Part shown: positions 2,100 through 53,865 of the stretch, in pieces
Position numbering within the stretch: the first letter of the stretch is position 1
Layout: every line of letters begins with the position of its first letter
Assembly: GCA_963575745.1 (NCBI GenBank)
Contig: CAUYUJ010015260.1
Coordinates: 976,977-1,040,976, forward strand
Direction: 5' to 3'
Length of the DNA: 64,000 bases
From: Prorocentrum cordatum
Lineage: Eukaryota > Sar > Dinophyceae > Prorocentrales > Prorocentraceae
Position numbers and translations under genes: made by a program
Notes under the pieces: model-generated
Seen by the model: the letters and a program-made list of their open reading frames with translations, nothing else
Database searches by the model: none
What the model was told of the DNA's origin: nothing

Positions 2100-4215
<2,116 letters not shown>

Positions 4216-8784: not shown

Positions 8785-8928
8785 CAGGCCAGCCACAACT
8801 GGGAGAGCTGTGTTCCTTACCCCCCATGGGGGACCCATCGATTTCGACACCCCTCTCGAGAGATCGTCGATGCGATGGGTCCCCCCAGGGGGGTAAGGAC
8901 CACAACTCCCCCAGTTGTGACTGGTCGG
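8785..8928. mobile_element. 144-bp TIR element, CAGGCCAG family, copy 1
   Basis: Starts CAGGCCAGCCACAACTGGG and ends with the near-complement CCCAGTTGTGACTGGTCGG. CCTCA (8780-8784) and CCTCG (8929-8933) look like a 5-bp target duplication. The paralogous stretch at 9178-9205 lacks the element and reads straight through CCCCTCATCTGCGCAGG. The sister copy at 42778-42920 is an intron. Confidence 0.88.
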
Positions 8929-18109: not shown

Positions 18110-18600
18110 TGGCCCCCGACAGTCGTGGATCGAAGGTGCGCTGTCTGCACGGCAGGCAGGCTAGATTTCAGCAGCGACAGGAGGGGCTGCAGCAGAATGC
18201 CACGTTCAATCTCTGGCTCCTCCGGATGATCAGCGACGCGACGCCATTGCCACGCTTCAACAACACGAAAGAGGAGGGCCTGCACGGTGAGTGGGCAGTA
18301 GTCGTTGGGGTTGACGATGGCACCGTCGGGCCAGACCCAGGCATCGGCGGAGTACGCGGTGATGCCCACACGCCTAGGGGAGGCCCACAGAGCGCCAAAG
18401 GGGCCCCTGATGGAGGACCAAGGGTGCGACAGTCCCGAGAGATGAGCATGGGCCTCACGAATGCCGATATCCAGGGCCTGGAAGGGCAACCAGAGGTCCT
18501 GGAGAGCATGGAAGGATTTAGCAGGCAACCAAGTAGCTCTGTAAATGGGGCCCAGACAGGGAACAAGGGGCCAACAAGAGGGCCAGAGTGCGGGACTTGC
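18110..18600 (-). pseudogene. LINE region between RT and RNase H
   Basis: Open in a third frame, with coherent residues such as PWSSIRGPFGALWASPRRVG and RVVEAWQWRRVADHPEEPE. It joins the RT frame near 18600 and the RNase H frame near 18115 only by frameshifts. This is the connector typical of LINE ORF2. Confidence 0.65.
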
Positions 18601-19930
18601 CATCTTGATGGTAGTCCTGAAGTTTACCAGCAGCTCCTCGCAGAGCCTCCAACTCCCGTCCGTTAGTGCCCATAACAGAAGAACCATAAAGCACGGAAGT
18701 CTCCAGAGCACTTCGAGCCATGCGCCCAAGCACGCGGCGACGAGGCTTAGAACCTTGCAGAAAGGACATGCGTTTCCTACGCAGCCGCATCGCCTTGACG
18801 CGATCGGCAGCGGTGGCCTTGCCACCGACCTGGCCCGAGGCAAAATCCACACCGATATTGCGCTCCGAGCGCACAGGCAGGGGCCGGAGGCTCTTTAACT
18901 TAGCGGCAATTGAATTGCGCACAGAGGGCGTGTTGCCAAGCACACGCGGTTTGTCTAGAGAAAACTTAAGGTCGACGTCCTTGAGCTCGCCATGCAAGCG
19001 CTTGCCAGCTGCCACGATGTCATCAACAACCCGCTTCTCGGTGCCCCAGCGCATGAGGCCGAAGTCATCAACGTTGACGGAGAGGTTCACAGTCGGGCAG
19101 CTGGCCTGCACGGCATCGAGCGGGCCTAAAAGAACAATCTGCAACATGCATGTGGCAAACGTACATCCTGGCACAACGGTTTGCTCAACCTTCAACAAGG
19201 AACCAACCTCGCCAGCAACATCGAGCAACCCAGGGGCACGATAAATCTGGACCAGGAGGCACAGTTGCCACATAGGAAATCCAGTGGCCTTGGCAGCAGA
19301 AATCAAGTGAGAGCGCTGAACAAGCTCGAACGCTTTCTTCAAATCAAGAAGCAAAGTGGCGCAACTGCGGTTCTTATACGTGGAGTGCTCCGACCACGCA
19401 GCTTGGATCCACGCGCATTTTTCCGAGGACTTCCCGTGGGTGGACCAGAAGAACGAACGATCGTTTTGAGCTTGCCACTGCCTGATGAGAGGACGTCTCA
19501 AGCGACATTGCACGCGGGCCAACACGTGCAAGAGCCCCAAGGGACGGACCCCACCAGTTCTCTTAAGAACGAAATCAATTCTGTTCCACATGACAGGCCA
19601 ATCTCGCTGATGCCCAATGTGAGAAAGCAAATCGCACAAAGCTTCAAGGGCGGGCGGCGGCAGCAGCAAGAGCGATCTCGTCGAGATCTGGTCAAAGCCA
19701 GTGCCCGTGCCAGCCTTAAAGCTTTTGAGAGAGGACACAAGCTCAGGAACGGTAGGCCTGGGAGGGGGATCTCCGAGCTCGGGCCGAACGAGGGGGGGCT
19801 TTTTGGACCCGACGGACCACCACTGCTTCCACTCAGCTTCGAGAACGTCGATCGACTCGATCGACGAAGCAGGGCGAAGGGTGGAGTGGTCAAGCACGTC
19901 AGGCTGCCAACCGATGGGCAGCGACGAAAA
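18560..19930 (-). pseudogene. LINE reverse transcriptase domain
   Basis: Palm motifs are visible. Motif A is LLLDLKKAFELVQ (~19325-19365). Motif B is VVPGCTFATCML in place of the usual G-x-PQG. Motif C is VNVDDFG (~19061-19075), keeping the two catalytic Asp but with Val-Asp-Asp where most LINEs have Ala-Asp-Asp. Upstream FKAGTGTGFDQIS and KRTGGVRPLG fit the fingers (motifs 1-2). The thumb-side text continues to 18560. The enzyme copies element RNA at the nicked target. A frameshift at about 19930 separates it from the linker. Confidence 0.9.
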
Positions 19931-20410
19931 CCTGAAAAAGGGCCGACATCCCCCCCGAGGAATGCTTGTCAACCCACTGATTCCAATCCCTTTCCTTGGT
20001 GGCGGACGAGAGGGAGTGCCGGCGCTTGGCCTCGCAGTCGGCCATGCGCGCGAGCGCCGCGAGCGAAAGGTGCGGCACAAGGGGGGCCTGCCGCAGCACC
20101 GCCGACCACGCAGCATACTCCGCGGTGTCGGACAGGCGTAGGAAACCTGACAGACGATGAGTTGCTGAAGCCAACTGCAGCCTGTGGGTACCCACAGGAT
20201 CTCGAGCGAGGTCGGAGAGGGGCACGCTAACCTTCCTCCAAACGATCTTAAGAGGCTGACAACGCCCGACGAACCGATCAGCGTGCCCCCCCCCCCCCCC
20301 CTCCCCCGACTCAGCTTCGGCTGCGCGGACAAACGCGGGCCACTTGGCCTGAGCCGCAACGTTGGGGTCGGCACAGAGATCCTGGACGGGCTCCCAAAGC
20401 CCTTCGAGGG
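19930..20410 (-). pseudogene. LINE EN-RT linker in other frames
   Basis: Sensible protein text appears in frames different from EN and RT: LWEPVQDLCADPNVAAQAKW (about 20400-20340) and SDLARDPVGTHRLQL...MADCEAKRRHSL (about 20225-19940). Homopolymer runs at 20287-20303 (C) and 20407-20428 (G) sit exactly where the frame changes. They may be real decay or assembly errors. Confidence 0.7.
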
Positions 20411-20479
20411 GGGGGGGGGGGGGGGGGGACCGCAGCCGATGGGGACCTCAAGGGGGAAATGCCTGGGGACATTGACGAC

Positions 20480-21190
20480 GCGGACAGAGGCAACATTCTC
20501 GACCTTGGGGAAGGAGAGCCTGACAGGAAGGTGAGGAGAGGTGGGGACGTCAGGCACGACTTCAGCCCTGGCCCCACCTGCAATACACCTTGAAACGACG
20601 AAGAAATCGACGCAGCGAATGGCTGGGCGACAGGTGCCGCCCTCAGGAGCAACGACTGCGGAGTCCATGGCGCCCACCCGGCCAGACTTGACCAGGTCGC
20701 CGTGGGGAACGTTCCAGTCGCCACCGATCACGAAAGGGATGGCGGCACACTGCAACCGAGAGCCAACGCGGCTCAGAATATCCCAATTGAACTCATCGGG
20801 GCCGACCGAATGCTTCAGGGAAAGGTTGGCGACAAGAAAGCCACCGCGCATCATGCCGCCGACGTGATGCAGGCTGGCACGAGCTGGATGGATGTCCTTG
20901 TCAACGGAGTCGAGCACCCCAAGCCCGACGCGCCGCGGAGTCGCCGTAAGTAACCTTCCTGTCGGATTGCCAAACGCAGGCGGCGCTGCCGCGAGAGACG
21001 CAGACCAGCCGATGACGCGGAGCCGAGCCTCAGTGGCGCCCATGTTGGCGCCGATCACCCTGGTCTCTTGAATCGACAAAACGTCGGCAGGAATGTACTC
21101 GGCGAGAAAAGCATCTCGACCTGCCTGCCCGCCAACGTTGGCGGTGAGCAAAGACCACACCTTGGGCTCGCGCAAGCCCGGCGTGTTAAA
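20480..21190 (-). pseudogene. LINE APE-type endonuclease domain
   Basis: Landmarks of the endonuclease/exonuclease/phosphatase fold are in order: LLTANVGG near the start, LSIQETRV (Mg-binding Glu, ~21060-21080), VIGGDWNVPHG (~20705-20735), CVDFFVVS (~20600) and SPHLPVRLSF (terminal catalytic His, ~20520-20545). It nicks target DNA for target-primed reverse transcription. All key residues appear intact. It overlaps the end of ORF1 in a different frame. Confidence 0.85.
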
Positions 21191-22298
21191 GAGACTGCGC
21201 GGCAGCTTGCTCTTGGAACGGCGAAACAGAAAGCACCCTCGAGGTGGCCTCATTGATGCCTCCGAGAATATTCTCAGCATGCTTGCGAGTGAGGCCTTTC
21301 GTTTTGAGAAACTCGTCCCAACCTTCATCGGTGGTGAGCTTCTTAAGATAGCCTTTGAAAACCCTCGTGGCGGCGGCGCCGCGAGGGGTAGGTGTGACCT
21401 TGCCACCCCGTCCCCGCCCAGTGCCCCTCCCCCCGCCACGTAGAGAAGCAGGCGCGTAGCCAGAGGCAAAAGGTGACGCAGAGCCAGCGAGAGGCGCGGC
21501 CGAAGCGGCGACGCTGGCAGAGTCAGCTTGCGAGGCTTCACTGATTGCAGTGCCTGGCACCACATCCTCCATGACCTCGGTGTCGCCATCCTCGCTGGAC
21601 TCGCCTTCTGCACTGCGCGCATCAGCACGAAGAAGGCCGTCTCGTGTGGCGAGCAGGGCTTGGAGCGACATGGCCAACGTGGGATCGAGCGACTTGAGCT
21701 GCAAAAGGAGGGCGAATGCGGGATCCTCAGGGGACAGTGGCACACCTGCACCGTCGACGACATTGACGCGATGAGCGGCACAGTGCGCCCAGGCCGCAGT
21801 AGCCTTGGCTGAGGCGTCCCGTTCACGCTCCTCGAGCGACTCCATGGCGTACTTGAGCTGCACGAGCCCAGAAACCTGCCCTGCAGCTCGGACCTCGACC
21901 TTCTGGATCTTCTTGGCGGTCTGCATGATCTGGCGGTTGGCGTCATCGAGGACGGACTGCGCATGCTGCGTGACCGCACGCGGGTCACCGGCGGCCAGCG
22001 CCCGCTGGGCGACCACCTTGGCCCTCTGCGATGGAGACAGCAGAGGCCTGACCACCTCGAAATCCTCGTCAGACATGCGCACCATGCGGGCCAGCTGCTC
22101 AGGCTCGAGCAGCTTGTGCTTCGGCTTGGGCTTGGGCGGCCCACCCGCCCATGCGGCTTGAGCAGCAGGAGGCTGCACAACAGCAGGAGCAGGAGGACGA
22201 GCCGTACCGCACTTGTAGCAGAACTTCTTTCACGCAAAGTTGGTTTTGAACCCGCACTTCCGCTTGGGACAGCACCACACATCATTGCGATCGCCCAT
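21186..22298 (-). pseudogene. LINE ORF1, interrupted by one TGA
   Basis: From ATG at 22298 the frame reads VWCCPKRKCGFKTNFA, then TGA (22232-22230), then KKFCYKCGTARPP and about 340 further codons. The four-cysteine pattern CC-P-x3-C...C-x2-C is zinc-ribbon-like, as in ORF1 proteins of dinoflagellate LINEs; the TGA lies inside it, perhaps from a TGG. The body has a helical acidic segment (LEERERDASAKATAAW) and a GRGRGG stretch near the C-terminus, both fitting RNA binding. The stop is at 21186, overlapping the endonuclease frame. Apart from the TGA the frame is intact. Confidence 0.78.
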
Positions 22299-22399
22299 CG
22301 AATGGGCGGGACACGGAACACTTGCTCCAGCAGGAGCTCACAAAGAAAGACGGATGCCAAAATCGCTGGTTGACTCAACCACCTTGAAAAGATGAACTA

Positions 22400-42626: not shown

Positions 42627-44990
42627 ATGTCGACTGACCCTGTCGTGCTCGGCAGCCTCTCTGAAGTGTGCGGCGCACCCCTGCAGCTGTTCGAGCTGGT
42701 CGCGGTGGTCGGAGACGACGGCGACGGCGATGGCGCTGGCTCGATGGCGTACCTCTGCCTCGGCAGGCAGCACATCTCAGGCCAGTCACAACTTGGGGAG
42801 CTGTGGTCCTTACCCCCCTGGGGGACCCATCGATTTCGACACCCCTCTCGAGAGATCGTCGCTGCGATGGCTTCCCCCAGGGGGGTAAGGACCACAGCTC
42901 CCCAAATTACGGCTGGTCGGCATCTTCTTCGTCTCGGAGCAGATACACAGATTGTGCAATGGCCAGAAGTTGCCGTACCTCCAGAGGAAGACAAGACGCC
43001 ACAAGCACAAACGGTGTGCGCTCCGCGCGGGCTTCCTGGATCTGCACCGGGCCCCCCTGCTGGGTCGCGCGGAGCGCGCCAGGGGCGGCCCCGGAGGCGC
43101 CGCCTGGTGGGCCCATTGTTCGGGGGTGGACAGACCTCCTACCCTGACACGTCGATTAAGGAATTGGCCGTTTTCGGTTCGCGAGAGGGCGTCGCGGCCG
43201 GCATGTTTGCGGGTCCAGGTCCGTCGGTTTCCGTCCCAGGCCGTTTTCATTAAGAGGAGGTTTGCTAAAGGGAGGTTTGTCCACCGCCGAAAGGAATCCG
43301 CGCGGAGCGTCCAAAGTTTATGTTGATGGCGTTTTTTCGTCTTCGAACCTCGACATCGAGCGGGCTGTGGTCGACGAGGCGTCGCGCAGTTTGTTCTTGG
43401 TGGTCATCCGCCCCGGCCAGGACACGACGTGGCGCGGCGGCGACAGGCTGCTGGTGAGGAGCCAGCAGCGCGAACTGCTCCTGGAGCGCCTGGCGCTGTG
43501 CTGGCAGACGCAGCAGATGCACGAGCGCTTCCAGGTCAGGAGGCTGCCACAGGCCATCGAGGAAGAGAACAAGACGCCATGAACCATGCACTGCTGGCGC
43601 TCCGCGCGGATTTCTTGGATCTCCGCCGGACCCTGTTTGGCGGCGCCTCCAGCGCCGCCCCTGGCGCGCTTTGCGCGCCAGGGAGGGGGGTCCGGCGCAG
43701 ATCCAAGAAACCCGCGCTCGGCGCCAAAAGTGCATGTTTATTCAAGAGAAGAGTAACCACCCAGACCCGATAATTGGCGTTTGCTAAACGGCCCTGGGCG
43801 TTTGCTGAACAGCCCTCCCCTGTTCGATTCCTTCTTCGGGTGCGTTCACGAAACGTCTTCACTTGTCGAGGTGGCCATTCGGGGGGTGTTTTTTGTTTGC
43901 CTTTTATTTTTGGCGTTGTTTCGCCTCCCGCTCCTCCTCCTCCTCATCATCATCCTCCTTGCAGGCCCGGGCCTCGATCACCAGTGGGCTGCGGGGCACG
44001 GGCGACGGCTTCGCGTGCCGTGTTCTGCCGCAGGTGGAGCCCTTCCGGGGGTACGTGCAGGAGAGCCGGAGGGGCTACAGTTTCTTCGTCCGCGCCGGTT
44101 TCAAGAGCAGGGGCCGGTGCTTCTCCTCGTCCTCCTCGTCGTCGTCCTCGTCCTCGTCATCGTCGTACTCCTCGTCGTCGTCCTCGTTTTCGTCCTTGTC
44201 ATCGTTCTCGTCGTCGTCGTCGTCCTCGTCGTCGTCCTCGGTCTCGTCCTCGTGCTCGTTCTTGTCGTCGTCGTCCTCGTCGTCGTCCCGCTCCCCTCTA
44301 GGCCTCCCTGATGTGGTCGGAGTAGATGGGGTCGGAGGATCGCGCCGCATCGCCGATGCATCGCCGATATGGCTCGACGTGGAGCCCGATTTGCTTCACG
44401 TCGACGTCGCCGATGCATCGCCGATGTCGACGCTGCATCGCCGGTGCATCGCCGACACATCGCCGATACATCGCCGATGTGTCGGCGATGTGGCATTATC
44501 CTATTCCGACCTCATCTAGGAGGCCTCCAGGTGCGGGCGTTTCATCTGCGAGCCCGGGTGGTCGGTCAGGTATGCGGCCGAGGACATCGAGTTGCCTGGG
44601 GGAGTCGAGATCGGGATCTACACAGAGGAGCCTCGCAGGCACGCAGGCCTCGTGAGCGGCGGGCATGAGGACTTGCGAACGGTGGCGATAGAGTACAGGA
44701 CCTTGCTGACCAAGGAGCTGCAGCAGCTCCACGTGCGTGTGAATCGCCCGTTCTTGAAGCGCATGAACCGCACGGGCGACATTGCAGCCTGGGATGGGTG
44801 GGAGTTCTTGGTGCGGTCAAAGCGGCACCTCCTGGCATGTGTGGTGCTCCGGCGGAAGTTCATCCCCCCCCTGTGCGACACCATGCAGGATGTCGTGGTC
44901 ACTCTGCGCTGCCCCGTCGACGCCCTGGACGTGGCGGCTGTGACGCAGAGCATGTGCGATGTGGTTCGAGAGGTCGGGACATTCGGCTAG
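42627..44990 (+). CDS. Five-exon gene of unknown function; introns made of TIR elements
   Basis: Proposed exons 42627-42777, 42926-42981, 43352-43534, 43965-44116 and 44531-44990 join into 1002 nt, 333 residues and a TAG stop, with phase correct at every join. The N-terminal part alternates hydrophobic strands (MAYLCLGRQ, HIFFVSEQIHRLCNG, SLFLVVIRPGQDTTW) and ends in an amphipathic helix (RSQQRELLLERLALCWQ), a pattern like a PH-type domain; this is only a suggestion. The C-terminal half (SVRYAAEDIELPGGVEIG, FLKRMNRTGDIAAWDGWEF) is not recognised. The start is the first ATG after an in-frame stop, but earlier exons are possible. Introns 1 and 2 are TIR elements without GT-AG at the frame-restoring joins. 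Intron 3 has GTCAGG...TTGCAG and intron 4 GTGCTT...CTCCAG. Confidence 0.72.
42778..42920. mobile_element. 143-bp introner-like TIR element, CAGGCCAG family, copy 2 (intron 1)
   Basis: CATCT at 42773-42777 and 42921-42925 is a 5-bp target duplication. Ends are CAGGCCAGTCACAACTTGGG and the complement of TTACGGCTGGTCGG. Removing the element and one CATCT joins GRQHI to FFVSEQ in frame. No position of the cut within the duplication gives GT, GC or GA at the start with AG at the end. Sister copy at 8785-8928. Confidence 0.9.
42982..43346. mobile_element. Hairpin TIR element with a nested element (intron 2)
   Basis: ACCTC at 42977-42981 and 43347-43351 flanks it. The left arm (GAAGACAAGACGCCAC...GCGCTCCGCGCGG) pairs with the right (CCGCGCGGAGCG...GGCGTTTTTTCGTCTTC). 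A 173-bp element (43119-43291) lies inside. Excision with one ACCTC joins KLPYL to DIERAVV in frame. The joins offer no GT-AG. Confidence 0.85.
43119..43291. mobile_element. 173-bp TIR element, copy 2, nested in a hairpin element
   Basis: TTCGGGGGTGGACAGACCTCC against the complement of TTCGGCGGTGGACAAACCTCC. Same length as 6949-7121 and closely similar throughout. Confidence 0.87.
43563..43755. mobile_element. Hairpin TIR element inside intron 3
   Basis: The arms TGGCGCTCCGCGCGGATTTC and AAACCCGCGCTCGGCGCC pair around GGCGCCTCCAGCGCC. It lies between donor GTCAGG (43535) and acceptor TTGCAG (43964). The remaining intron sequence to 43960 is unique, ending in a pyrimidine tract. Confidence 0.75.
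44117..44530. other. Intron 4: CGTCCT microsatellite plus GATGCATCG-family element (44297-44529)
   Basis: GGTGC occurs at 44116-44120 and 44530-44534, so splicing within it is position-ambiguous, and GT...AG is available (GTGCTT...CTCCAG). The left part is (CGTCGTCCT)n (44125-44290). The right part is copy 3 of the ATGGGGTC TIR family, with its own complementary ends CTCTAGGCCTCC / GGAGGCCTCCAG. Confidence 0.8.
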
Positions 44991-45160
44991 GCGTAAGAGT
45001 GACCTTTCGCCAGAGTGACCTTTGGTGCGGGCACAGATGGGCCCCCAGATGGCCGGACGCGATGCGATAGTAGTGTCTTGCGCGCCTGTGTTGGGCCCCC
45101 CCGCGGCCCCCAAAAAGCCGCGCACCAAAGTTCATTCTTACCCATGGTCACTCTTGCGTG
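44991..45160. mobile_element. TIR element directly after the stop codon
   Basis: Begins at the base after TAG: GCGTAAGAGTGACC...AGTGACCTTTGGTGCGGG. It ends with the complement, GCGCACCAAAGTTC...GGTCACTCTTGCGTG. Possible 3-4-bp flanking TAG/CTAG duplication. It would lie in the 3' UTR. Confidence 0.82.
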
Positions 45161-45372
45161 TAGCAGGGACATGCCAACTGCAACGTGCTGCCGGCCTGGC
45201 CCTTCGGTCGGCGCCCGGCGCGCGCGGGTCCCGAGGCCGGGGCGCCGAGGAAGGGCCCGGCCGAGATATCTCTGCAGGGCTGCGCCCTCCGCCGCGCAGC
45301 CCCGTCTCGGCAGCCCGCACCGCTGGGCGCTGTCGGCGGCTCTGAGGCCGACCACGTTGGTGACCCACATTG
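45161..45372. other. GC-rich unique sequence
   Basis: Open on both strands through GC content. No motif is recognised. Confidence 0.3.
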
Positions 45373-45528
45373 TTAAGTCGGGCCTGTTTTTTTGGATTAT
45401 GTTTTGATTATCTGTTGAGTATTTGTTGTTGTTTTTTTTACTATTGTTTGGCCTTTTAGGGGTATTTCTGGGGTACGTGTTATTTTTCGTCGACAACCCT
45501 CCTGTAGGGGGACACTGCCGACTTAAAC
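45373..45528. mobile_element. TIR element, AAGTCGGGC-TGTCCC family
   Basis: Left TTAAGTCGGGCCTG, right GGGGGACACTGCCGACTTAA. T-rich interior. These are the same ends that bound 25734-27750. Confidence 0.75.
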
Positions 45529-45540
45529 CTATTGATGTCC

Positions 45541-45706
45541 CACTCATCGGGCGAAGAGGACTATACACATGCACCGATCCTGGCAGGGCCCATGCTGGAC
45601 CCAGTATCGGGGCATGTACCTTTCTGGCCAAGGCAGAGGGCGTATGCACCGATCCTGTGCTCAGGATGGGCCTGGCGAGAATCGGTGTATGTGCATAGTT
45701 CTCTTT
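45541..45706. mobile_element. Palindromic element related to 7528-7697
   Basis: ACTATACACATGCACCGATC at the left pairs with GAATCGGTGTATGTGCATAG at the right. The middle has TTTCTGGCCAAGGCAGAGG, as in the 7528 copy. 45710-46500 holds only unique sequence with short frames. Confidence 0.8.
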
Positions 45707-46499
45707 CCTCTAACTGACCCTAAACATCATTTATCTATCTGCCCATCAACGAATTGATTGGCTGGTTGGCAGGCGGGCTTGCTGATTGGATGGCTGGATG
45801 GCTGCTTTGGCGGGCTGGCTAAAGATGGGGGCACGGCCCCACAGTTGCCATCCTCATCGTCATCGTCGTTGCCGTCGTCCTCGTCATGATTACTACCACG
45901 TCCTGGCCGCCGTCGTCGCCGATGTCGTATTCACCAGCATCACCCACCCGCACAATTCATTTATCAGCATACCAGCGGTCCCTGCATCATTGTACCAGTT
46001 GCGGAAGGCTGGATAGTATGTATATTCGAGCCTTTTGGATTTGACGATTGGAAGCATGCAAATTTGATAACACCACGTATACTGCACACTCTAGGTCGCA
46101 TTCCCTAGACCACAATCATTGTGCACAACATGTGCATCGAGTGGGCAAGCACCCATTGTTTAGGGTCCACGGTGACACTCAATCATGTTGCGGTGGCATC
46201 GCGACCCCAGGATCGCGGGCCCATGTTTGTTTATAAGGGTCGTGGTTCTGGCATCGCGGACTTACCGGGTTGTCGCGTGCCCCATGGCACTCAGAGATTC
46301 CTAGAACACGTTTATAGACATTGCCCAATTATCGGGGATGTCTACTGCGAGCCTCCGTCGCCCATCGCCTTTCGAAAACGCCAATGCGGCTATTCTTTGA
46401 GCCAAGCTATCTAGTGGACTATGTGTTCCCCCTGCCGTACTTGAACCCTATTGGGGGAATCTGTGGGGGAGAAGTAGACAGTGGGACAACAGAGTGGAG

Positions 46500-47045
46500 A
46501 AGGATGCGGAAGAGGGGGCGGAGGAAGAGGAAGCCTCTCGAGGCCGCCTTGTGGCTCCTGTGGGGCTCCCCGGGAGCCTCTCGGGGGCCTCCGAGGGGCC
46601 TCTCTGGGGCCTCCTGGGGCAGGGGGCATCTTTTGGGGCCTCCGGCGGCCTCCAGGGGGGGCCTCTTGGCCCTCGGAGAGGCCGTCTCGGGGGCCTCTCT
46701 GGGCAGGCGGTGGTCCCGCGCGCTCTGGGGTCGCAGGGCGGAGGTCTGGGGGGCCGCCCTCCCTGACCTTCCAGAGAGCTATGTTTGAGCACGGGATGCC
46801 CAAAAACCTAAAAAACGAAACGAAACAGTCTAAAACCAGGACATTGAATAGCTCTGGGATAGGTTTTTAGGCCGCGTGCTATCTTTTAGCCCTCCTGGAA
46901 GATCAGGGCTGGCGGCCTCCTGTGAGCTGCCGTGGGGCCGTCTTCCGGGCCTCGCTTGGGGGGCCCCGCTTTGGGGGGCCTCTCGGAGGGGGCCTTCTGG
47001 GGTCACCCCCGCGGTGGCCTCTGGGGCCGCCTCGGGGCCCGAGCG
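46500..47045 (+). repeat. GGGGCCTC minisatellite blocks
   Basis: Degenerate CTCGGGGGCCTCCGAGGGG units at 46540-46760 and 46900-47045. The frames follow the repeat. Confidence 0.7.
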
Positions 47046-47330
47046 TGCCTGGCGAGAATTGGTCATCTCACCAGCTGCAAAACTGGCAACAGGTATTGCC
47101 ATCAATCTCGGATTGAGCTCAGAGAAGATCACGAACCCCAGAATGTCGAACTTCTAAGTGAGCTGCAATGGTGCGAACTGGCTTGCTGAACTGGTGCAAG
47201 ATAAATTGCCCAGTTGCTGAAGCTGAATCCGTTCAGCCTCATGGCCCCAGAGGGGTGGTCATTCGGATTACTACCAGTTAGTCGCAGTTCCCGTCAGGAG
47301 TGCTGTTTCGTCGCGGACTCTATTGCGCCG

Positions 47331-47400
47331 GTGGCCGAGTGGCGCTCAGTCGAGCCTCAGCGCGGCGAGACTCGGTTCGATCCTTCGCTCCCGTCGGGAG
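47331..47400 (+). ncRNA. tRNA-like promoter boxes, possible SINE head
   Basis: TGGCCGAGTGG matches the pol III A box and GGTTCGATCCT approximates a B box, 31 bp apart. A convincing cloverleaf cannot be drawn, so a tRNA-derived SINE or chance is likelier than a tRNA gene. Confidence 0.25.
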
Positions 47401-47409
47401 CAGCCTCAT

Positions 47410-48465
47410 CGTAAGTGGGCTGTGAGCACGGCTTGGGCTTCGGGGTGGTAGGCATGCGCGACGGTACTGAGGTTTTGCATGTTTCAGCGGTTTTTCAGCT
47501 CTGTGCAAGCATGCTCCCAGTGCGAACCCCGTTCAGACTTGTCGATTTATCCAGGTGCCCCAAATCTGACAGCGATTCCAGGCGCGGTCGTCGTAGTCTT
47601 TTTTCTCCTCATGTTCTCCCTCTCGCCACCGTCATCCATCCATCTCTTTCCCTCCGTCTTCCATCCTTTATCCCTCGTCTCTTTCTCCTCCGTCATCCCC
47701 CTTCCTCCTTCCTTCATCATCTCTCTTCCCTCCCCTCTTCGCGTTAACTTCTCCCTCCCCCGCTGCTCAAGACTCTTCGCAGTTGTGGTTCTCGTTGGGC
47801 GAGCCGAAGATGACCCCACGAATGGACAAAGACCTGCCGGAAGCGGTGGCAGACAGTCTCGCGTCTCGCAGGTGTGCGCTGTACCGCTGCATGCATTCCA
47901 TGCACCTTCGTCCGATCGCCGAATGCACTCAGGTATGCCGTGTAGTTGTGTGGCAGTGAGGCAAACGACGGTACCACGGGAGCAGTGATGGGGAGGCTCG
48001 ACATCTAGGAACCTATCGGGGGTCGTTAGCGTCATCTTGGAGGTCTGTTGTGTCCGTTAGGAAACATGTGCAGTTTTCTGCAGGTTTTATGTTCGGCCTC
48101 TCTAGAGCCGGGGGGGCCCTCAAGGAGCCATCCCGGAGGCACCAGTCTCGCAAAGGTCCTATGCGCGGTCGTCGTCATCGTCGTCCGTCTCCTCGTCTTC
48201 ACGCCTCGTGCCTCCTTCCCTGCCCCTTCCCGAGTCCTTCTTCCCTCCTCTTTCCTCACTGGTCTCTTTCTCCGTGGCACTGTTATATTCCTCCGTCATC
48301 TTCTCTCGGTTCCCTCCGCTTCGCGTTCACCCCTCTTTCCTCCACTTCTCTCTCCTCCCCTCCTCCTCCCCCCCCCTGCCAGCTTCGTCATGCCACCTCC
48401 ATTCCAAGTCGTCAGCGAGCCGGGCGTTTCGCGCGAGATGTCCTACCACTGCTGGGCCTCAAGCG
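47410..48465. other. Unique sequence with pyrimidine-rich runs
   Basis: CT-rich stretches at 47600-47760 and 48200-48380; no gene recognised. Confidence 0.4.
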
Positions 48466-48469
48466 CAAG

Positions 48470-48850
48470 AATTGGCAGCAGTTTCGCAGATGGTGGGCGC
48501 GTTGCTTCCAACATGTGGCTCTCGCTGTTCCTCCGCGCACATTCGTTTCAAACTGCTGACAGAGTTTCACGGATTGAGGGCGAGGCATTTTCAAGATGTG
48601 GTTCTCGCCTTAGCGAGTTGAGGACAGGTGGTTTTCAAAACGAGGTTCTTGCCCTAGCGCCGCGCACATTCATTCAACAAGAAATTCACGGATGGTGGGT
48701 GTCTCTTTTTCAAGATGTTGTTCTCGCTCTAGCGCCGAGCACATTCGTCTAAGCAAGTATAAGATGTTCGTGGAATGAGGGCAGTTGTTTTCATAATGTG
48801 GTTCTCGCTTCTGTGCCGCGTTCAGTCGTTGTAAAAGTTTATTAGAGTTG
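48470..48850 (+). repeat. ~80-95-bp degenerate tandem repeat
   Basis: Units share TTCAAGATGTGGTTCTCGC, GCCGCGCACATTCGTT and TTCACGGAT. Four to five diverged units. Confidence 0.75.
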
Positions 48851-49319
48851 TGTTGGTTCTCATGGTCAGCGTACCAGGAATGCTGTTTTGGAACGGTTCC
48901 AGGATTTTCAGGGCTCAAATGTTAAGTCGATTCGCGGTCTTGAAGTCCCAGGAATGGTTTTCTAGCACGGTTTAGGATCGTTGTGGAGTTGACGTCGGGA
49001 CAACGGTGTTTAAGCACGCTGCAAGATCTTCAAACGGTTGTCTCCCATCCCGGCATTCCCCCCAGTGGAAAAGAATCTTTGTATGGGGTTTGTGGAGAGG
49101 CAGCTCGGAGGTAGGTTATATTCCAACATCGTTGATGGGTCTTAGGTGGTTTGCACTGGGCTTTCATCCTTCCTCCTATCAGCAACGTCTTTGACCGACG
49201 TCGTTGCACACTCGAGGGACGCATGGGGCATTTTTGCAAATTCTGTTATTGTAAAAACCCCTTGAGTAGAATTCCCCCGTCTTGTGAACGACCAGGCGAC
49301 CGTGGCCAAGCTTCGGATT

Positions 49320-49690
49320 TCAGGTATTCAAACCAGGCCTGGCATATTCATTTGCTGCCCAAGTGCCAACATTGAAGACGCCTAGCCTGGTATGTGTGTG
49401 GCGTGCGTGCGCCAGTATGGGAGGATCAGACCTGAGACGGTAGCCTGCTGTGCGCAAGCCACCATTTGCACATGCCAGGCCTGGCGTCGTCATGCTAGGT
49501 GCAGTAGCCAGCGTTGGAAACGTCCAGCCCCGAGCTCTCCCGTGATATGCGTAAAGCCCAGCATTGAGCAGGTCAGGCCTGACGTGCTTATATGTGGTCG
49601 AGTCGCCAGTGCGGAAGACGTTGACATTGGCAGGATTGTTGATGCGTTGCGCGTCAAACCAGCTTTTGGACACGGCAGGCCTGAGGGGAA
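49320..49690 (+). repeat. ~75-bp degenerate tandem repeat with CAGGCCTG palindromes
   Basis: CCAGGCCTGGC, GTCAGGCCTGACGTGC and GCCAGCGTTGGAAACG recur. About five units. 48850-49320 and 49700-50230 show nothing recognised. Confidence 0.7.
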
Positions 49691-50238
49691 GAGGGCGCGA
49701 TGTGGCGTGTCACGTCTGTGTTTGTGTGTGTGTGTCTTGTGGTGTTGGTGGACAGAGTTGCGTGCTTGGTGTTTGGTGGTGAGTGTTTGGTATTTTGTTG
49801 AAGTTGTGTGCTTGGTGTGTGGTGTTGCGTCGTGTGACTGGTGTGTTTCTTGGGTACCGACTTTACCCTCGAGAGCGCCAGATCATATCCCGGTTTGGTG
49901 CGGTGAAAGTAGGTTTCTTCTCTAGAGAGCATGTCGGCCGGCTTCTTGCCTTTGCAGTGTTTCTCCACCTTCCGTGGATCTTTTTCCCTCCATCACCCTC
50001 CGCCTCTGCCTCTTCTCCTTGGTTCTCCTCATCCCGATGATCCTCCCCACTTTCTCCCCTCTGCTCGTTTTGTTCCTAGTCGTGATTCTGGTCCTGGTCT
50101 TGCTGCAGTTCCTCACTGTCCCACTACTACTCGCGATCTGGTGAGCCTCCGTTCCGACCTGCGATCAGATGTTCGCTCTGCATCGTTGTATCGGGCGGTG
50201 ACCTGAATTGACATCGCCCCACGCGAAAGCTCGCAATC

Positions 50239-50563
50239 ATGTTGTGGAGCGGTAAACCTGAGGAAGTGAAGCACGTGCACAAGGACATCATTCAGGCCCG
50301 GCTCGACTCTCTCCTTTGCTCAGAGGAAGAGATCCTCTGGCTGGAGGGGCACTGCGGCATGGTGCCGTGCCACCGGGAGCAGGCGGTGCGGTTCGTGAAG
50401 TCGATCGTGCACATGCTCGTATCTCAGAGCCTGCTGCCTGGCGACGAAGACATGTTGGACGAGGACATATTCCAGGACGTCCCGGTTCTGCACGAGCCAA
50501 TGCAAGCCCCGGCGGAGTTGTTTGCATCCGCAGAGCCTTTACTCGGGATCGCAGCGGATCAAG
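50239..50563 (+). CDS. Exon A of an unidentified gene
   Basis: From ATG (50239) it reads GKPEEVKHVHKDIIQARLDS, then EEEILWLEGHCGMVP and acidic GDEDMLDEDIFQDVP, ending ..GIAADQ plus one base before donor G|GTGAGG. It joins exon B in phase: the leftover G plus GG makes glycine. The composition is clearly protein-like. Helical, acidic, no family recognised. It lies on the same strand upstream of the armadillo exon and may be its N-terminal part. Confidence 0.6.
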
Positions 50564-50700
50564 GTGAGGCGCCACTGGGTAGAGGCCAGTTGGGGAGCAT
50601 GATGAACAAAAGTAGTATGATAATATTAGCTCGGGTCCTGGAACCTCTCTGGCGAGTCGGCCACTTCAGACTGCATGTTCTCCTATGTTTTTGGGTCCAG

Positions 50701-50954
50701 GGAGGTGTTCAGAGAATCAGGGTTCTTCGTTATCATTGTTCACCAAGCTCCCCACCCCAAGAGGGCGCAAAAACATGTGGTCGTACCGGGTTGCGAGGTA
50801 CTTCTCTTATTGCGTCGACGGGGGTCTGTTGGGAGAGAGGTTCACTCTCAGGAAGCTCATCCGTGGGAGGGAAAGTTGCCAGGATGAGGATACCGTGGAG
50901 AGGCTCAGGTCCGTCATTCAATTTCTCCTCCAGACAGTTCCGACATCGGAGACG
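50701..50954 (+). CDS. Exon B of the same gene
   Basis: Acceptor TTTTTGGGTCCAG precedes it and donor ACG|GTGAGT ends it. It encodes KNMWSYRVARYFSYCVDGGL and LRSVIQFLLQTVPTSET. The 137-bp intron from exon A is a plain GT-AG intron without inverted repeats. The frame stays open past the donor to ~51120, so the exon could be longer. Confidence 0.58.
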
Positions 50955-51189
50955 GTGAGTTGCGACATAGCGGAATTCACAGCATCCAGGGCAGGCATTG
51001 CATACATCAGAGGCAATGCGGTTTTGCTGAAGCCGGGCGAACTCACAACTTACCGGTTTAACGAACGAGTCATGGCGGTGCTTTTGCTAGAGGGTTCGGT
51101 GGAAAGAGAGATGTTTCAAAACGGGTGTCCTGCTGATACTTATTCGAGAGGCTTGCGGCATCCTGCCGACCGTCTGACGCCGTCGGGAG

Positions 51190-51650
51190 CTGTCTTGAGG
51201 GCCGTTCTGAACCGACTTGGAGCCCTCTTGGGGTGCTTCACAGTCGTCTTGGAGGACATCTTGGGTGTCTTGGATGCTTTTTGGGCCGTCTTGGGACCTC
51301 TTGGGGCCGTCTCGGGGGCCTCTTGGGTCTTTGGAGTGCCGAAAAGTAGCCAATTCAAACATACTTTATGACAATTGATGGCTTTTGCCTCTTCAGGCCT
51401 TCCTGGAGGACCTCTTAGAGGCATCTTGGGCCGTCTTGGAAGGCTCTTGGGGGGCCTCTTGGGCTGGCTTGGGCTTTCTTGAAGCCATCTCAGGCCGTCT
51501 GGGGTGCACCTGGGGCCGTCTTAGAGGCATCTTGGGGCCATCTTAGCCGCCTTGGAGGCCATCTTGGCCGTCGGGGAGGCATCCTGGAGGCCATCTTGGG
51601 CGCCATCCTGATTGTCTTTGAGGCGAGTGTGCCATTGTTGTCGGCTGATT
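51190..51650 (+). repeat. CTTGGGGCCGTCTTGG minisatellite
   Basis: Degenerate units such as GGCCGTCTTGGGACCTCTTG across the stretch. A second block is at 52380-52660. Confidence 0.75.
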
Positions 51651-51984
51651 GTGCGGCCCTGTGGTCGGCGCAATGGAATTGAAGCCCCAGGGGGGGTTCT
51701 CTGGCGGAGAAAGAACAACGCAGGATATGGTATTGACAGGCGTGCTTGAGAAGGAGGGGGAGGAGAGGGGAGGGCGATGGAAATTAGCTATTCATGTACT
51801 CGTACTCGACATACTTGCTCTCCAGCATGGGCCACTTCATTCATGCAAACCCATGGAATGCTTATGCCAACGTGCCAACTTTGCTATTCTTTCGCCGCCA
51901 GCTTTTCTCGTCATGGCAGGCCTGTTTTACAGTTTCGCCGTCCCCACGAGTGGGGCGTGACGCCTTCGGGCGTCCGGTCGGACC

Positions 51985-51995
51985 TTTGTTGTTGG

Positions 51996-52053
<58 letters not shown>

Positions 52054-52055
52054 GG
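51985..52055 (+). repeat. (TTG)n microsatellite
   Basis: About 22 uninterrupted TTG trinucleotides. Confidence 0.97.
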
Positions 52056-52379
52056 GGAGTGCTCTTGGAAAATAACCCAAACCAAACACCACAAGATATT
52101 CAGCACGCCAGGCACTCCCGGCGGCAAGCCAACAGAGGGCGGCTGAACGACAGTCACCCCGCATAGTAAGGATGAGGCCATGTTCCGAAGGGTACCCTTG
52201 CATCCATGTCTCCTTGGTCCATCCTTGGCCACTTCCGTTAGCGGCGCCCCGCTCGAAAAGCTTCGAAACGGCCTTCCAAGGCCCTTGCATCCTTATTGCG
52301 CGTCCTTCTGATACGGGTCGATTGTTCCAGTCTTCGGCCCATTCCGCAACCCTGTCTGGGTCGTGGACATGTGGCCGCT

Positions 52380-52760
52380 TGGAGGCGTTTTGCTTGGGGT
52401 CCCTTGGAAGTCCTCTTGCGGGCCTGTGGAGCCTCTTGGGCGCACGGGGGCCTCCCGGGAGCCTCCCGGGGCCTTTTGGGCGCCTCGTGGAGGCACGGAG
52501 GCGCTCTCTGGGGCCACCTCTGGGTTGAGGGCTCCACAGGCCCTTTCGAGTTACCCCCCCCCTTGGGCCTCTCTTGGGGCCCTCCTGGGTCCCTATTTTG
52601 GGGCTTAGGGACTGTCCCCTGGGCCGTCTTGGATGCTCTTTGGACCAAGAGGACGGTCATGCGAAATATCATTCAAGATCTCAGTTTGTCCAATGGTTTA
52701 ACCTCTTGGGCCGACTCCCACGACCCCCGAGACGGCCCACGAGGCCCTCTGGAGAGCTCC
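52380..52760 (+). repeat. CTTGGGGCC minisatellite, second block
   Basis: GGAGCCTCTTGGGCGCACGG and GGGCCTCTCTTGGGGCCC style units. The frames are compositional. Confidence 0.65.
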
Positions 52761-53072
52761 AGGACGGCTCCGCGAGGTCATTCGGATGACGCATGGGACG
52801 TACGGGCTCCCGGCCACGTCCCCACTGCTTCGGGACACTCACTATAGACGACCCAGGGCACGAGAGCGCGCGAGAGCGCCCAGGAACGCCCAAGAGATAC
52901 AGGGGCACTCACAAGATTCAGCGTTGTGGACGGAGGGACACGAGGTCACTCCACTCAGTGCCTATGGCACGATGGCGGATTTCACGTTCCTTGCAGTTCT
53001 TCTGGGCTGTACGTTTGTCAGCGACTCTTTCCGTGCAATGATATGCCAGCTCGTTCTGGATATTTCATGCAG

Positions 53073-53865
53073 GTGCGATAGTGAGAGCCTACACCTGCTT
53101 GTCCCAGCATTGTTGCAAGTAATGAAGGGCTCCAATGTGGTCTTGGCCTCATGCGCTACAGCCGCTCTGGTTAACATGTCATGCGAACGCGCAGCTACGA
53201 AGATGCTCCTGGCGTCGCAGGGGGTCATCCAGATCTGCGTTGAGCAGCTAAAGGTGCGGGACGACGAGCTCAGCCTTTACACGCTGTATTTGCTGGTCAA
53301 TCTCACCAAGGCCCCGCACCACCGCCTGCTGCTGCTCAAGGCGGGGGGCCTGCCCCAGGTCGTGGGATTGCTCTTGTCGGCGTACCAGAATCGCCACAAG
53401 CATGCTCTGCTGAGCGAAAGTGCTTCGATCATCGGCCAGTTATGCAACGACAAGGAGACACTGGCCTTGATGTCGGACAGGTACCCAGTCGTACTTGCCT
53501 TGATCTGGCTTTGGAATGTGGCCCGTATCGGCACCAAGCTCAGTTCCAACGTGTTCTTTGCTCTGAAACAGCTCTGCGCACTGGACCAGAACAAAATCAA
53601 GGCCGGTCCACACATGATTACCCGCATCCTAGACGACCTGTGCCAGGGCGCACCAGACCTGGACGACGAGTGGGTCGCCAATCTCCTCGCGCTGCTGACC
53701 ATGCTGGCCAGCGTTCAGTCCAACGCGCTGGCAGTCGGTTCCGACGGCCGGCTGGACGGCGTCAGGGCCGCCCTGCGCCAGCGGCGCTCCTCTGGTGGCC
53801 TGCTGGAGCAGTGGGAGCTCCTCCACCAGCTCGTCCTGGCCGCGAAGCTGCGCCTGCCCGGATAG
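53073..53865 (+). CDS. Armadillo-repeat protein, C-terminal exon
   Basis: About 264 residues ending KLRLPG and TAG. Successive helical repeats follow the armadillo pattern: LVPALLQVMKGSNVVLAS, CATAALVNMSCERAATKMLL, LYTLYLLVNLTKAPHHRLLL, AGGLPQVVGLLLSAY and ESASIIGQLCNDKETLAL. Armadillo domains bind partner proteins; partner and role here are unknown. The exon probably opens after TTTCATGCAG (53072). The frame is open further upstream to 52786 and includes MADFTFLAVLLGC, so an earlier start is possible. A 27-bp copy of its last bases recurs after an adjacent TIR element. Confidence 0.78.

Follow-up and report, generated by a model that had tools for sequence, protein, structure and literature searches.

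Introners with TIRs and target duplications that help to supply GT, GC or GA...AG borders are described from many eukaryotes including Symbiodinium (PMC9860276), and a TIR/TSD family of this kind was shown for Symbiodinium microadriaticum (PMC9860276; Roy et al. 2023 as cited in PMC11453091). In Amoebophrya A25/A120, introners that are non-canonical and have free borders are described; over 60% of the introns with RNA support there are non-canonical, and U1 was not found. A table in the same source holds one other genome with 9.3% ‘other’ borders (PMC7789003). It has been suggested that introners of the Amoebophrya type are confined to part of the genus (PMC12005148), and in the literature that we searched, the dinoflagellate introns with free borders are those of A25/A120 (PMC7789003). 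For the nonconventional introns of euglenids, stem-guided removal has been discussed and a MITE-like origin proposed (PMC4770533). The Prorocentrum cordatum genome paper describes introner elements with inverted and direct repeats at intron ends, and reports GT, GC and GA donors for 24.7, 51.4 and 23.8% of predicted introns, together 99.9%; the annotation pipeline had been modified to accept donors of the GC and GA types, with a mention of PASA ‘non-canonical splice sites’ (PMC10666404). We found no report of free-border introns in Prorocentrum in the searched literature, outside which most subscription papers fell.

Here we analyze a 64,000-nucleotide stretch (the window) of a contig of 1,067,622 bases in the 4.13-Gb assembly of P. 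cordatum. In it, a 143-bp TIR element, element A, interrupts an exon of a conserved gene (Table 1). The anatomy that a sequence-only reading had assigned to this element is borne out: CATCT stands on both sides, and the two 44-nt arms are 91% complementary. When the element is removed together with one CATCT, SMAYLCLGRQHI runs on into FFVSEQIHRLCNG in a continuous frame, as that reading had claimed and as the homologs agree. Exactly six cuts in the range searched yield this joint peptide (CA-GG, AT-GC, TC-CA, CT-AT, TC-TC and CA-CT); all six were enumerated and, again as had been stated, none is GT-AG, GC-AG or GA-AG. The putative intron A is 148 nt long, and because 148 is 1 modulo 3, its retention would shift the frame.

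Table 1. Coordinates of the host gene, its insertions and introns, and a second family copy in the window.
Feature	Position	Strand	Basis
Second copy of the element A family, repeats CCTCA/CCTCG, outside any recognised exon	8785..8928	+	family search
Exon 1 of host gene (MSTDPVV...GRQHI), left CATCT included	42627..42777	+	sequence, homology
Left 5-bp target duplication CATCT	42773..42777		sequence
Element A, 143-bp TIR element, proposed non-canonical intron	42778..42920	+	sequence, genome family
Element A, left inverted-repeat arm	42782..42825	+	repeat search
Element A, right inverted-repeat arm	42873..42916	-	repeat search
Right 5-bp target duplication CATCT	42921..42925		sequence
Exon 2 (FVSEQIHRLCNGQKLPYL), between A and B, frame conserved in homologs	42926..42981	+	homology
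Element B, left target duplication ACCTC	42977..42981		sequence
Element B, inverted-repeat insertion, imperfect arms, without GT/GC/GA-AG borders	42982..43346	+	sequence
Element B, right target duplication ACCTC	43347..43351		sequence
Exon 3 (DIERAVVDEA...RRLPQ)	43352..43552	+	homology, open frame
Intron C, usual GC-AG	43553..43964	+	expected joint from NCBI model
Intron D, usual GT-AG	44117..44530	+	expected joint from NCBI model
Intron E1, usual GT-AG	44973..47297	+	joint backed by P0007
Intron E2, usual GA-AG	47337..50262	+	joint backed by P0007
Intron E3, usual GC-AG	50585..50763	+	joint backed by P0007

A second inverted-repeat insertion, element B, lies 56 bp downstream of element A and interrupts PYL|DIERAV, a site at which the homologs are continuous, with SYLDIERAV or close variants of it. 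Its arms are 47 nt long and only 74% complementary, which suggests an old insertion; element B is probably the older of the two. The six cuts within its ACCTC duplication likewise lack a usual border, so that both elements fail to show the usual splice sites of introners, and this conserved gene would hold two distinct apparent introns, A and B, that lack usual borders. Seven introns were solved between 42627 and 50766. The five other than A and B have usual borders (GT-AG, GC-AG or GA-AG) at the expected joint, the expected peptides being those of the public gene model P0001 itself for introns C and D and backed by the protein P0007 for E1–E3. Since these five are usual, departure from the rule is associated with the pair of TIR insertions. 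Stretches of element B are 83–84% identical to a repeat in intron C; a foldback repeat akin to element B starts 9 bases into that intron, whose border is nevertheless a usual GC-AG.

Five homologs of the protein, P0002–P0006, were recovered with E-values of 1.5e-74 to 5.3e-49; P0005 and P0006 are identical in the segment compared, leaving four distinct sequences. At the joint, P0002 reads YFVNREMNSLIEGRERLSYLDISRAV, to be compared with FFVSEQIHRLCNGQ-KLPYLDIERAV for the product of exact removal. The segment restored in this way is present in all five homologs and in a distant copy within the genome, L013, which is 28% identical and crosses the element A site within a single open exon. Next to joint A, five additional residues are present in P0004, which is itself from P. 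cordatum. In the proposed frame, exon 2 scores 30–44 against P0002–P0005, values reached by 3, 0, 0 and 3 of 2000 shuffles; the two remaining frames score no higher than shuffled sequence. Against L013, exon 2 scores 19, which 407 of 2000 shuffles reach, and L013 alone does not discriminate the frame. A predicted model of P0003, of modest quality (mean pLDDT 63.7, pTM 0.50), begins with what we read as the strand order of a PH domain. The only structural match to it with an E-value under 0.001 was an uncharacterised bacterial protein; PH domains scored more weakly, for example that of PKBalpha (TM-score 0.63 by target length, E 0.022). In this model, joints A and B would fall within strands 46–50 and 64–73 of the PH-like domain. 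The predicted PH-like region that removal of element A and one CATCT would restore is conserved in the five homologs and in L013.

The public annotation treats this part of the gene otherwise. P0001 (42627–44972) reads GRQHISGHSPNYGWSASSSSRSRYTDCAMARSCRTSRGRQDRAVVDEA across it; by our reading, it takes a GT-AG intron at 42785–42897, inside element A, and a GC-AG intron near element B. The frame is shifted between the two, and in place of about 22 conserved residues there is a non-homologous stretch, which apparently results from the choice of usual borders. P0001 is one form of a wider alternative in which the spliceosome would use cryptic GT, GC or GA-AG sites in or beside the elements and the protein would be altered there; in another form, some ten residues around the PH-like strand would be lost. 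Such sites are plentiful, with 57 in-frame pairs within 60 nt of the borders of element A and 52 for element B, the 25 nearest for each having been inspected. However, because the conserved peptide is restored by only six cuts per element in the ranges searched, every other option alters it, and the exact joint scores 66–89 against P0002–P0005 and L013, as opposed to 20–28 for the joint of the NCBI model. We regard the use of cryptic sites as unlikely. Protein searches with the N-terminal joint for spliced transcripts returned no match, and no processed copy of the host gene was present among five genome matches, four of which are the gene itself and one L013.

Alternatively, this copy of the gene could be disabled in the sequenced strain, with the elements retained or the locus silent and nothing removing them. 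The presence in a single domain of two insertions whose borders are unusable would fit such a state, as would the fact that family copies without a usual cut are otherwise unrecognised in genes. Against it, the eight joined exons form 569 codons with no stop, the compared segments are conserved, and the frame is open even though the divergence of the element B arms suggests an insertion of long standing. Element A differs from the consensus at seven positions, four of which are private when 43 copies are compared. On the assumption that substitutions in element A postdate its insertion, the probability of chance intactness is about 4e-4 to 2e-5 if five to seven of them arose in place, and about 2e-3, by our own scaling, if only the four private differences count. 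A coding region of 1.7 kb would thus be unlikely to stay open without selection if the substitutions of element A arose in place, and we consider a disabled gene very unlikely. Farther downstream, exons at 50263–53860 encode an armadillo-like region, with PDB matches including beta-catenin and ARMC4. On a 1287-bp JGI contig, the armadillo-like region is present free of introns in P0007, a continuous frame of 390 aa that spans E1–E3 and stops short of A and B; it is 75–86% identical to the host exons, exon by exon, leaving out one match that overran its exon, and looks like the transcript of a relative.

Element A belongs to a large family. A first genome search with the element returned 1089 candidate places, 40 of which were scored. 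The exact 33-nt core occurs at 457 places in the genome and the exact 21-nt left end at 641, the mirror control giving 0 in both cases; no exact match to the core was present in the viral contigs searched. Among 102 copies examined (100 listed exact-core places plus the two copies in the window), both ends were recognisable in 89. An exact 5-bp direct repeat flanks the same ends in 61 of these 89, as against 42 exact matches among 7832 mispaired-end controls, and at least four of the five positions match in 76. In 43 copies, 34–39 match at each of the five duplication positions and 4–18 at eight positions outside. The element A family is a MITE-like non-autonomous DNA transposon with a 5-bp target duplication. 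The window also holds other repeats: long open frames on the minus strand at 18518–22396 resemble, by eye, a non-LTR retroelement endonuclease and reverse transcriptase, and another repeated family recurs at about 38.8, 41.7, 59.0 and 60.7 kb with the translation NTQTQLIVDSPENIGKYGKWGG or near variants.

Three sister copies could be placed in known genes through their joined flanks, which encode enolase (L111; Pfam 8.6e-11, PDB 5.9e-10), a GFO/IDH/MocA oxidoreductase (L072; Pfam 1.2e-6, PDB 9e-4) and a cryptochrome/photolyase (L094; PDB 2.7e-4, with a Pfam E-value of 0.0031 that is below the Pfam cut-off). For all three, the best alignments to solved structures cross the joint ungapped. Together with the window gene, joined-flank homology thus places copies as introns in several genes and, judged by homology, the element A family is an introner family. 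AGG closes the duplication in each of the three sister copies; this allows a GC...AG intron, followed by an exon whose first base is G. By the homology of these flanks, the genic copies recognised elsewhere in the family are canonical, and the window copy departs from them.

AGG targets are over-represented. Duplications ending in AGG number 6 of 60, against 1.0 expected, and genome-wide 62 of 641 exact left ends follow AGG (9.7%, against 1.7% expected from flank composition, about 5.6-fold over). The excess reflects a preference for these targets or else the retention of copies inserted there. A usual cut is available in 9 of 61 copies with exact duplications (seven forward, two reverse). Three of nine copies with a usual cut were recognised as genic, against none of 51 without (Fisher 0.0025), the window copy being omitted because the family was found through it; the association is suggestive only, since candidates were picked by eye and then tested.

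Further genic copies were sought among the flank reading frames, for which 281 peptides from 74 copies were listed. A codon score failed to separate coding from non-coding sequence and was discarded; on this non-discriminating score, the window copy lay between the 90th and 95th percentiles of the null. When 25 eye-picked peptides from 23 copies were scanned with Pfam, a family with support from Pfam or the PDB emerged at the three copies above only, and the window-gene peptide had no match. An RH1 match at L016 was below cut-off (E 0.092), AT_hook for L089 was disregarded (E 0.78), and L105 had no PDB match. At L025 (near 2949–3097; duplication CTTCC) the joined flanks may form an exon for a PAN domain, the PAN_4 match (E 0.021) being below cut-off; this would be a second non-canonical genic copy of the family. 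The idea that the family leads a life specific to introns was rejected, coding flanks being unrecognisable at most examined copies.

The element A family shares with introners its many similar copies, TIRs, short duplications and insertion into an exon (PMC9860276), and its three genic sister copies also share the supply of splice sites by the duplication. Unlike usual introners, element A itself offers no GT/GC/GA-AG in any of its six cuts (PMC9860276). In the latter respect it resembles Amoebophrya introns, with inverted repeats near the ends, direct repeats of 3–5 nt over the borders, borders outside GT-AG and a hairpin that can bring the exons together, although its arms are 44 nt long, compared to 8–20 nt in the Amoebophrya definition (PMC7789003). 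Unlike Amoebophrya, the P. cordatum gene has five other solved introns that are usual, the host is photosynthetic, and element A is an intron predicted from DNA sequence. The P. cordatum genome paper sought introners within predicted introns (PMC10666404), and element A is modelled differently in P0001.

The predicted RNA fold of 42760–42940 has a free energy of -112 kcal/mol, compared to -65.8 ± 4.5 for shuffled sequences, none of 200 being as good. Predicted folds of both A and B leave 7 nt per end (the 5 duplicated plus 2) outside a long stem that would be able to bring the intron ends together. Among 43 family copies, however, element A ranks 38th in free energy; 4 of 61 pairs in its stem are broken and one compensatory pair (17/127) is present. 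Since this stem is weaker than that of most copies, nothing shows selection for the hairpin. Its preservation does not exceed that in other copies, an argument against strong selection, and the compensatory pair was rejected as evidence in view of the broken pairs and the energy rank. The earlier suggestion that the hairpin brings the ends together holds as an anatomical possibility.

These folds bear on a further possibility, that excision is independent of the spliceosome, the stem alone marking the cut and other enzymes cutting and joining. The predicted folds of A and B, and the fact that the two have no usual border motif in common, would agree with such a route. It has been discussed for the nonconventional introns of euglenids, which have variable borders, direct repeats and a stem joining the ends (PMC4770533). 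Euglenid introns have a CAG at +4 to +6 paired with a CTG at -8 to -6 (PMC4770533); read by hand, no single cut of element A puts both triplets in place, and by the same reading a CTG near the 3' end is absent from element B. The unexceptional conservation of the element A stem and the GC-AG borders available in the three gene-placed sister copies, which point to the spliceosome, also count against this route, and we find it rather doubtful, even as it overlaps with the explanation that we prefer, being a sub-case of it with different machinery.

Taken together, a model for the locus emerges in which element A is probably removed precisely from the pre-mRNA despite its borders. A MITE-like element of the introner family would enter an exon and duplicate 5 bp. 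At a target with AG|G at its end, a GC...AG intron would arise from the duplication together with the first C of the element; element A would have landed in CATCT, with no usual borders on offer, and element B, probably earlier, nearby in ACCTC. As the gene is still open and conserved, we infer that both are cut from the pre-mRNA exactly, somewhere inside the duplicated 5 bp, and the exons joined. The spliceosome would most likely act on weak borders held close by the hairpin; it is our first choice because the sister copies show that the family can carry GC-AG borders in genes, and a hairpin-guided route without the spliceosome would come second. The sequence-only reading had taken element A for a precisely removed, transposon-derived intron. 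Its origin as a transposon insertion with TIRs and a 5-bp duplication is supported, and the conserved protein to either side favors exact, non-standard removal at this site; as a family-wide mode, such removal finds no support, the three placed sister copies all having GC-AG borders.

It is a tentative possibility that P. cordatum harbors a hidden class of introns, transposon insertions that would be removed exactly at the duplication with any border, their terminal hairpin being recognised, and that would coexist with GC-AG introns of the same family. These introns would escape public annotation because gene finding is tuned to GT, GC or GA donors. Annotation may also mis-join genes, as at this host gene, where the 22 conserved residues seem to have given way to a frameshifted stretch. 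A family that can form GC-AG introns at AGG targets and, at CATCT, an apparent intron lacking usual borders makes for a natural test of sequence versus structure in intron recognition.
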